Of a DNA stretch of 64,000 nt, positions 2,916 through 63,669 are shown in pieces. Within the stretch, counting starts at the first letter, position 1; each line of letters begins with the position of its first letter. The notes under the pieces were generated by a model that saw nothing but the letters and a program-made list of their open reading frames with translations, had not been told where the DNA came from and did not search any database. Position numbers and translations under genes: made by a program. Source of the stretch: Halovivax cerinus (GTDB lineage: Archaea > Halobacteriota > Halobacteria > Halobacteriales > Natrialbaceae); NCBI RefSeq assembly GCF_024498195.1, contig NZ_CP101824.1, positions 3,162,001 to 3,226,000 of the forward strand, in the 5' to 3' direction.

Positions 2916-3921
2916 CACAGCGCACGATCCGATCGAGTACTTCCTCGAGGACATGACTCACCACGGGCGTAACGTTCGAACGTACGAGGCGTACGAACGC
3001 GTACTCGGGCAGTTCGAGACGTTTCTCACGACCGAACGAAACGCGTCGCCGGAGACGGCCACGTACAGAGACTGTATGGCCTGGGTCCACGACCTGCGGA
3101 GCCAGCACGCCGAGAGTACGATCGCGACGTACGCCTCCTATCTGAATCGATTTTACTCGTACCTGGAGCGGGTCGGGCGTCACGACGAGAATCCGATGGG
3201 GCTCGTGATCGAAGAGATGGACGAATCGATCGATACCAGCCCCGCGCGGCGAGACATCTCCCTCCCGGAGATGCAGGCGTTCGTGTCCGGTCTCGCGCAC
3301 CCGTTGCACCGGTCGATCGTGATCACGTTGTTGAAAACGGGGCTGCGATCCGGCGAACTCTGTAATCTCGATCTGTACGATCTCAATCTGAGCGGCGAGC
3401 AGTACTGGGACCCGCGTCCGCAGATCGACGGCCAGACCGGCTCACTGTACGTCTCTCCCGATCACACCTACGGAGAGCGAAGCGGCGGGGTCGAGCGGAC
3501 CGCCTCGAACAAGCGAAAACGTGAGACGATCGTTCCGATCGACGACGAACTCGAGGGAGCGCTCCGTCGCTGGCTCGCGATCCGACCCGATACACAATCT
3601 CGCGCCGAACCGGTCTTTTTGAGCACCGAGGATCGGTGGGGACGTCGCCTCACGCCGGATCACGTCCACCACATCGTCACTCGCTACACGCGTGAGGCCG
3701 GCTGGTATCGGTCCGGAGGTGGCGCCCGAGAAAACGTCACACCGCACTACTTTCGACACTTCTTCACCACACACCTCCGGGATCGGACGGGCGACCGCGG
3801 GATCGTAAAGTACCTTCGCGGCGATGTCGCCGACGATATCATCGACACCTACACTCACAACTGGGGTGATCGCGTCCGTTCGACGTATCTGGAACACATT
3901 TATTCGGTGGCCACGAGTTGA
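2908..3921 (+). CDS. xerC: Tyrosine site-specific recombinase (XerC/D-like integrase)
   Basis: 337 residues with both recombinase domains. An N-terminal SAM-like core-binding domain spans about 6-100, and the catalytic domain about 115-335. Catalytic residues seen are Arg147 in TGLRSGELC, HxxR at His280-Arg283 (HYFRH), His317 in THNWGD and Tyr327 in STYLEHI. Spacing and length match Xer/phage-type integrases. It overlaps the upstream RHH-like gene by 8 bp. No tRNA, att repeat or other mobile gene is seen beside it, so it may be a resident recombinase rather than an element integrase. The wide empty flanks (1.1 kb before, 0.76 kb after) are compatible with a decayed element too. Confidence 0.85.
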   Translation: MSDTAHDPIEYFLEDMTHHGRNVRTYEAYERVLGQFETFLTTERNASPETATYRDCMAWVHDLRSQHAESTIATYASYLNRFYSYLERVGRHDENPMGLVIEEMDESIDTSPARRDISLPEMQAFVSGLAHPLHRSIVITLLKTGLRSGELCNLDLYDLNLSGEQYWDPRPQIDGQTGSLYVSPDHTYGERSGGVERTASNKRKRETIVPIDDELEGALRRWLAIRPDTQSRAEPVFLSTEDRWGRRLTPDHVHHIVTRYTREAGWYRSGGGARENVTPHYFRHFFTTHLRDRTGDRGIVKYLRGDVADDIIDTYTHNWGDRVRSTYLEHIYSVATS

Positions 3922-63026: not shown

Positions 63027-63099
63027 GGACGTGTGGCCTAGCGGAGAGGGCAGGAGGTTCCTAACCTTCTGATCACGGGTTCGAATCCCGTCACGTCCG
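63027..63099 (+). tRNA. tRNA-Arg (CCU anticodon)
   Basis: A full cloverleaf can be folded. Acceptor GGACGTG pairs with CACGTCC and has discriminator G at 63099. The D stem is GCC/GGC. The anticodon stem GGAGG/CCTTC has loop TTCCTAA, giving anticodon CCU that reads AGG (Arg). The T stem ACGGG/CCCGT holds the loop TTCGAAT. No intron; CCA is not encoded. The 3' end from 63078 on begins the 129-bp repeat. Confidence 0.93.
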
Positions 63100-63406
63100 T
63101 TTCCTGCGAGCGATAGCGAGCAGTGAAACCGTCATTGTGGGATTCGAAGCCTGCCAGTCGCAGCGCGCACAGTGAGCGACGCGAACGAGCACGACCGTCT
63201 GGATTCGGTTCGAATCCCGTCACGTCCGTTTCCTGCGAGCGATAGCGAGCAGTGAAACCGTCATTGTGGGATTCGAAGCCTGCCAGTCGCAGCGCGCACA
63301 GTGAGCGACGCGAACGAGCACGACCGTCTGGATTCGGTTCGAATCCCGTCACGTCCGTTTCCTGCGAGCGATAGCGAGCAGTGAAACCGTCATTGTGGGA
63401 TTCGAA
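63078..63406. repeat. 129-bp direct repeats carrying the 3' end of tRNA-Arg (candidate att sites)
   Basis: Copies start at 63078, 63207 and 63336 (period 129); the third ends at 63406 after 71 bp. Each starts with the 22-bp T-arm/acceptor sequence of the tRNA (GGTTCGAATCCCGTCACGTC, then CG). The copies are identical by eye over the compared region. tRNA 3' ends are usual integration sites, so these may be nested att sites or remnants of integration events. Confidence 0.85.
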
Positions 63407-63669
63407 CTCGACAGGGAACGCGTTCCACCGATGGCTGCTACCAGGCGGCGGGTTGGCTGGAACGATTTCGGAGGGTAGTACCACTCGGTGCCCAGAATCT
63501 CCCATTCACGATCCGATCTGGGGAGAGATGGGGTAACACGATGGGTCGGACACTACGGGCTGGTGAATCGATGGCGAGTCGAGGGACGGGTCGGAGCGAA
63601 CGATGAGATTATCAGGACCGATAATCTACGGATGAAACTTTTTAGGGGTGAGTTCTTTGGAAGGCGTTG
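63407..63669. other. Upstream region of the probable secretion ATPase
   Basis: No gene. It contains the palindrome GATTATC-N6-GATAATC at 63607-63626 and a TATA-like CTTTTTAGG at 63638-63646, about 24-32 nt before the start codon. The GC content drops here compared with the flanking genes. Confidence 0.5.
63607..63626 (+). promoter_or_regulatory. GATTATC-N6-GATAATC palindrome
   Basis: Perfect 7-bp inverted repeat with a 6-nt spacer, 11 bp upstream of the TATA-like element at 63638. Position and symmetry fit a binding site for a dimeric regulator, probably at or near the BRE. Confidence 0.5.

Follow-up and report, generated by a model that had tools for sequence, protein, structure and literature searches.

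In bacteria, BIME/REP and REPIN arrays are composed of alternating repeats with conserved hairpin modules between them, and they change by local duplication and exchange. The attC arrays of integrons are built from units of about 130 bp that have dyad symmetry and fold in a strand-specific manner. To our knowledge, no known tRNA trailer repeats tRNA ends or shares cassettes. In Haloferax volcanii, hairpin-assisted termination has been documented, including a hairpin terminator that was tested in Haloferax, and two 3’ ends were reported downstream of a tRNA-Pro gene (PMC7237163). Partial duplications of tRNA genes were, in the literature that we searched, tied solely to prophages and ICEs (PMC3119063, PMC9897764). 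This search covered open-access literature, and it yielded no description of arrays of the kind reported here.

We analyzed a tandem repeat behind the tRNA-Arg(CCU) gene of Halovivax cerinus, which is located in a stretch of 64,000 nucleotides that is called the window throughout; positions refer to the window unless a contig is named. The repeat unit consists of the 22-nt end of tRNA-Arg(CCU), termed X, and a spacer of 107 nt, and the following features were assigned:

63027..63099, plus strand: tRNA-Arg(CCU), the anchor of the array (ARAGORN; RF00005)
63078..63099, plus strand: X1, the final 22 nt of the tRNA, which span position 53 through the discriminator base (boundary determined from 160 arrays)
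63100..63138, plus strand: hairpin A1 and linker (TTTCCTGCGAGCGATAGCGAGCAGTGAAA...), with a GA/GA tip and a GATA loop (sequence, unit parsing)
63139..63149, plus strand: x’1, an inverted copy of the T-loop and T-stem (GGGATTCGAAG; inverted repeat I2)
63150..63206, plus strand: B1, a hairpin cassette (CCTGCCAGTCGC...CGTCTGGATTC type) that other tRNA genes share (comparison of B hairpins)
63207..63228, plus strand: X2, an exact copy of the tRNA 3’ end (repeat alignment)
63229..63267, plus strand: hairpin A2, with the same sequence as A1 (repeat alignment)
63268..63278, plus strand: x’2, an inverted T-arm copy (repeat alignment)
63279..63335, plus strand: B2, with the same sequence as B1 (repeat alignment)
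63336..63357, plus strand: X3, an exact copy of the tRNA 3’ end (repeat alignment)
63358..63406, plus strand: partial last unit with A3 and x’3, after which the identity stops (repeat alignment, TRF)

The first-pass annotation had described a 129-bp tandem repeat that regenerates the 3’ end of the tRNA, with a phase beginning at the T-loop/T-stem, followed by a potential secretion or pilus ATPase gene, and had proposed an alignment of the three copies. The description was confirmed. Over their 129 nt, units 63078-63206 and 63207-63335 match at every position, and the third copy, which starts at 63336, is exact up to 63406 and divergent beyond. The 22-nt tRNA end thus recurs exactly twice, far above chance, and the repeat phase starts at tRNA position 53, immediately before the T-loop. 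TRF reported positions 63078-63406 with a period of 129, 2.6 copies and 100% matches. The locus has the identical head-to-tail units of a simple tandem repeat, but in other arrays neighbouring spacers mostly differ. The gene 3’ of the array, at about 63667, encodes a PilB3-like type II/IV secretion ATPase (PF00437, E 8.6e-31; PF23989), and the gene 5’ of the tRNA is tatA (PF02416). An antisense open reading frame of 155 aa with 43-aa repeats (FESHNDGFTARYRSQETDVTGFEPNPDGRARSRRSLCALRLAG) runs across the array on the minus strand (63038-63505). It exists because 129 is divisible by three, and annotation pipelines that report it as a gene are probably wrong.

When the whole 3.9-Mb genome was searched with the array, ten places were found, and all of them except the query were situated just 3’ of another tRNA gene. 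Spacer matches were observed at the genes for tRNA-Gly(TCC), Lys(TTT), Arg(TCT), Leu(TAA) and Asp(GTC), as well as, by coordinates, Lys(CTT) and Glu(TTC). Each of these tRNAs precedes copies of its own 3’ end, never of the Arg end. The first-pass annotation had considered that the spacer might recur throughout the genome as repetitive DNA unlinked to tRNA genes; the recurrence is real, but it is confined to the flanks of tRNA genes. Accordingly, dispersal away from the anchor in the style of REP, BIME or REPIN sequences was not found, as every match in the own genome was adjacent to a tRNA. Using a threshold of at most 4 mismatches, a tRNA’s own last 22 nt recurred 78-157 nt downstream in 24 of 41 tRNA genes, 15 times exactly. 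Upstream of the tRNA, the own end recurred at 0 of the 41 genes (best match 6 mismatches), and the ends of foreign tRNAs fitted the downstream flanks in 3% of the comparisons. Two further arrays, at tRNA-Thr and tRNA-Tyr, have been displaced by integrated elements, such that at least 26 of the 41 tRNA genes have arrays.

Parsing of units from this genome and its relatives revealed the fixed order X - A - x’ - B - X. X extends from tRNA position 53 to the discriminator base, and right outside these 22 nt the identity to the tRNA was at background level in 160 arrays. Hairpin A begins immediately 3’ of X. Next comes x’, which repeats the T-loop and the 3’ strand of the T-stem of the local tRNA in inverted form and does not cover the acceptor strand, and then B, a second, apical hairpin of about 25-57 nt. 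X and x’ therefore alternate in orientation around the hairpins A and B, which is a layout of the REP/BIME/REPIN type. The sequence of x’ tracks its own tRNA, odd T-loops included (GGGAATTGAA at Gly-CCC), and its better fit to its own tRNA than to other tRNAs was reached in 0 of 20000 permutations. In its core, x’ agreed with the upstream rather than the downstream X by 59 to 17, but the flanking base gave the opposite, 2 to 16, so that neither X is clearly favored. We regard the anatomy and the distribution of these tRNA-anchored arrays as practically certain.

The hairpins were analyzed for signs of a conserved structure. In 200 parsed units, the tRNA-sense strand folded better than its complement by 154 to 44 for hairpin A and by 142 to 57 for hairpin B (p below 1e-10). 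Opposed GA/GA tips, which correspond to tandem sheared G.A pairs, were present in 98 of the 276 A hairpins and in 73 of the 276 B hairpins; their antisense counterpart TC/TC was observed 2 and 0 times, and dinucleotide shuffles yielded 1.8 and 0.9, respectively. The pair beside the GA step was A-T in 48 and G-C in 38 cases (together 86 of 96), versus G.T in 4 and A.C in 6, and the stem positions of hairpin A employ several pair types. The hairpin stems show compensatory change and a strand-specific structure. In the helix of x’ and X, changes that keep a G.U pair (A to G opposite T) were found in 30 of 741 cases, versus 6 of 692 for pair-breaking changes (T to C opposite A; p 1.2e-4), and both changes belong to the same double-strand mutation class. 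The stems of hairpin A lacked such a wobble preference (25 G.T and 25 A.C), which is compatible with folding of single-stranded DNA or with conservation at the sequence level; RNA is the likelier folded molecule. The acceptor part of X carried no signature of RNA pairing (C to T 2.7%, G to A 2.8%), and the idea that it pairs with the 5’ strand of the tRNA in RNA was dropped due to the missing wobble bias. Its identity to the tRNA therefore stems from duplication, conversion or recognition at the DNA level. Among the Rfam covariance models, the tRNA family alone reached its gathering score. A kink-turn/L7Ae site and a BHB splice motif were compared by eye, and neither fits clearly.

The two hairpins differ in how widely they are shared. 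For 76% of the B hairpins, a B with at least 80% identity was found at another tRNA type in another genome, and for 26% the identity was at least 90%; in the same comparison, only 20% of the A hairpins reached the 80% level. For example, an identical 40-nt B is present at tRNA-Glu in Halovivax cerinus and at tRNA-Ser of another species. The B cassettes are a small set that is common to tRNA types, genomes and families. The border between the shared B and the local X and x’ is a near-universal T-arm sequence (GGTTCRAATCC). Within arrays, unit blocks duplicate in alternating order, and the copy nearest to the tRNA is the most faithful one, with copy 1 beating copy 2 by 35 to 5 (p 1.4e-6), a polarity for which leader-proximal growth, conversion from the tRNA and selection would look alike.

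The arrays are not confined to one species. The first-pass annotation had suggested a comparison of the locus in related haloarchaea. Across 30 genomes from the same family, one to three copies of X mostly follow tRNA-Arg(CCU), with A and B sequences that differ. The signature GGATTTGAA-N28-58-GGTTCAAATCC was detected in 41 of the 53 genomes sampled from the order (haloarchaea) and in 0 of 242 genomes of the phylum outside the order, and a control with the reversed pattern gave 0. Of the 80 loci among the matches listed for the named GTDB collection, 64 were haloarchaeal and included the genera Halorubrum, Haloferax, Haloarcula, Halobacterium, Natrinema, Natrialba and others. For 61 of these 64 loci, a same-strand tRNA lies less than 1 kb upstream, and contig ends cut the remaining 3. 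Among the tRNA genes counted, arrays were present at 18 of 39 in genome G047 and at 11 of 21 in G058. The counts of this analysis are not independent, because they include related units and part of the loci had been picked by the signature itself. One haloarchaeon (G045, family f10, a one-contig genome; loci L355-L374) had arrays at 0 of 20 sampled tRNA genes and represents a natural absence.

The arrays stand at the 3’ ends of tRNA transcription units, behind the last tRNA of a cluster. Between adjacent tRNAs an array was found in 0 of 19 cases, versus 199 of 313 otherwise, a contrast that is in part due to ascertainment because many loci were chosen for their arrays. In Haloterrigena salina (L163, 5783-6700) and at L395-L400, tandem tRNA-Asp genes, often 11-49 nt apart, have an array behind the last gene only.

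Arrays were also observed outside the haloarchaea. In a Woesearchaeota genome (G337), they were found at 6 of 23 sampled tRNAs plus tRNA-Ser, with an unchanged order of parts, different hairpin sequences and three units at tRNA-Pro. The exact signature is rare in this phylum (4 of 279 genomes); one of the four matches (L426) reads as an ordinary tRNA, and another one, at tRNA-Leu (L428), clearly has the X-A-x’-B-X architecture. The same architecture was seen at the DPANN loci L107, L147 and L428, and L107 additionally has the haloarchaeal hairpin motif GAACGAGCGCAGCGAAGTGA. The DPANN arrays may reflect transfer, mis-binning or deep ancestry. Inspection of 80 pattern matches in IMG/VR revealed the haloarchaeal cassette in none of them. 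Judging from its sequence, the commonest class (...GGATTCGAAATCC...) appears to represent phage tRNA-Ser(CGA) genes, of which it covers the anticodon arm and the long variable arm; other matches read as tRNA palindromes of the Bifidobacterium type. Near-perfect palindromes of tRNA 3’-halves (CCGTGGACCTCTGG...CCAGAGGTCCACGGTTCAAATCC) were noted at L121, L124, L235, L247, L261, L263, L280 and L290, in Bifidobacterium genomes and in IMG/VR contigs of similar composition; these are possibly attachment sites.

On balance, we favor the view that the arrays form a genome-wide and haloarchaea-wide family of structured repeats, which are anchored to tRNA 3’ ends, change by duplication and exchange of B, and may serve as structured 3’ trailers. 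For the evolutionary part, local duplication plus exchange of B cassettes is reasonably probable. Local duplication would create copies of X together with the flank A, and these copies would be renewed from the tRNA-proximal side. The B cassettes would pass between arrays by recombination within the T-arm sequence GGTTCRAATCC, as the patterns of sharing, rather than comparisons of close strains, suggest. Exchange within such a nearly universal sequence would account for B being shared and for X, x’ and A being local. A role as trailer RNA is more tentative. The x’-B-X hairpins may act as structured 3’ trailers in read-through transcripts of the tRNA and influence termination, trailer stability or processing. 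Since the folding strand is the tRNA-sense strand, they would most likely act in RNA, and the hairpin termination and the tRNA-Pro 3’ ends of Haloferax volcanii (PMC7237163) make a trailer role plausible. It is quite conceivable, though short of probable, that about half of the tRNA genes in these archaea carry tRNA-specific structured trailers, each built from a copy of the 3’ end of its tRNA, the inverted complement of that end and swappable hairpins, which act on termination, 3’ processing or tRNA fragments, or that the arrays are a mobile hairpin cassette bound to tRNA ends.

Several other explanations were weighed. The x’-B-X part could be a small non-autonomous hairpin element of single-stranded DNA, similar to REPIN/BIME or IS200/IS605-derived elements, that homes to T-arms and is copied by a transposase acting in trans. 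The scattering of B cassettes over tRNA types and families, the strand-specific folding, the stems without G.U preference and the apparently tRNA-proximal growth would all be in line with such an element. However, X and x’ always match the local tRNA, and a moving element would not carry them; in addition, the unit matches in the genome all adjoin tRNA genes, and neither the spacer nor the unit had a match in plasmid or phage collections. We consider this explanation unlikely.

The arrays could also be functionless and have arisen neutrally by replication slippage and correction of quasi-palindromes. The identity of units 1 and 2 at tRNA-Arg(CCU), the alternating order in which unit blocks are duplicated, and the viability of the array-free haloarchaeon G045 are consistent with this possibility, but slippage would not give conserved GA/GA tips, compensatory changes and B cassettes that are shared across families, which makes a purely neutral origin improbable.

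The remaining alternatives involve integration, and it is important how integrated elements and arrays are arranged. The Halovivax cerinus genome has nine matches to PF00589, and none of them is located less than 1 kb from an array that still adjoins its tRNA. One integrase gene of this family lies within the window, at about 3307-3861, with no tRNA nearby. At four array-less tRNAs, an integrase gene is present 10-30 kb downstream. At tRNA-Thr(CGT) (G000:C1, about 2522900-2534400; L417), an integrated element of 11.3 kb with an integrase has displaced an exact copy of X and A-x’-B-X to a position behind attR. Its att core comprises 29 bp and extends 6 nt farther upstream than X. At tRNA-Tyr (G000:C1, about 2067300-2085700; L419), an integrase-bearing integrated element of about 18 kb is followed by a 13-bp att copy and then by A-x’-B-X2. 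The inner flank of this element resembles the hairpin-A flank of tRNA-Tyr, and the element may have picked up a host trailer. Because the mobile elements enter between the tRNA and the array, the arrays are older, resident features of the host, and we are highly confident that they are not integration scars.

This arrangement also bears on the proposal that the extra tRNA ends are decoy or spare attB sites, which divert integrases or repair the tRNA after excision. X covers the T-loop target of integrases and is nearly exact at the DNA level, including the acceptor part that lacks an RNA-pairing bias. Nevertheless, in both informative cases the element had integrated into the tRNA itself, upstream of the array, and a decoy gives hairpin B and x’ no role, so that we regard the proposal as rather implausible.

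The first-pass annotation had raised the possibility of stacked att sites, i.e. remnants of serial integration and excision. The 22-nt core from the T-loop to the discriminator base does resemble the att cores of tRNAs, and integrated elements of Halovivax cerinus do use such tRNA ends. However, the arrays are present at at least 26 of 41 tRNAs, with the own ends of each; the real att cores comprise 29 and 13 bp instead of 22, and their elements sit upstream of the array; PF00589 genes are missing within 1 kb of the tRNA-adjoining arrays; and the spacers are gene-free and consist of an inverted T-arm and shared hairpins. The att-remnant reading is thus largely refuted and very improbable. The other option of that annotation, a tandem duplication that keeps an att-like site, fared better in that local duplication preserves the stretch from the T-loop to the 3’ end and the 22-bp core is an integrase-type target. 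CRISPR-like insertion by Cas1 or a casposase, in which the tRNA body would play the part of the leader and X that of the repeat being duplicated, would explain the leader-proximal polarity and the repeat-insert-repeat layout, and a casposase recognises a TCAAATC motif beside tRNA-Pro (PMC6614799), but this reading is mostly refuted, with hardly any probability left, because Cas1 (PF01867) is missing from the array-rich genomes G047, G218 and G337, while the array-free G045 has two copies, and, moreover, casposon duplications are 14-15 bp long (PMC6614799) and the inserts contain a tRNA-specific x’.

In the sampled haloarchaea that have arrays, structured repeats anchored to tRNA 3’ ends stand behind roughly every second tRNA gene, and they have no Rfam family. 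They reveal either a general layer of archaeal tRNA-gene biology or a new lifestyle of sequences on tRNA genes. For annotation, they represent two traps: a copy of a tRNA end in an array-bearing genome need not be the att site of a mobile element, and the arrays themselves can be mistaken for protein-coding ORFs.

A comparison with described systems revealed partial similarities in each case. The arrays share the repeat-spacer-repeat layout, with the best copy beside the leader, with CRISPR and serial casposon insertions (PMC6614799), but their repeat is a locus-specific tRNA end, their spacers are shared hairpins, and Cas1 is not needed. Like the partial tRNA duplications at att sites (PMC9897764, PMC3119063), they contain copies of the tRNA 3’ end downstream of an intact tRNA; in contrast to those, the copies are about 100 bp and not kilobases apart, the unit lacks an integrase and has a 22-nt core, inverted T-arms and shared hairpins are present, and about half of the tRNA genes are affected. 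With integron attC sites they have in common a unit length of about 130 bp, a dyad symmetry and a folding that depends on the strand, whereas they lack cassette genes and their ends are tRNA-specific. As in pre-tRNA 3’ trailers and archaeal terminator hairpins, hairpins are located directly 3’ of tRNA genes, but, unlike known trailers, the arrays are without an Rfam family, repeat the tRNA ends and share cassettes. Finally, they resemble BIME, REP and REPIN arrays in that the repeat orientation alternates around hairpin modules; instead of a REP sequence, however, the alternating element is the T-arm and 3’ end of each individual tRNA, and the arrays are fixed to the 3’ flanks of tRNA genes.
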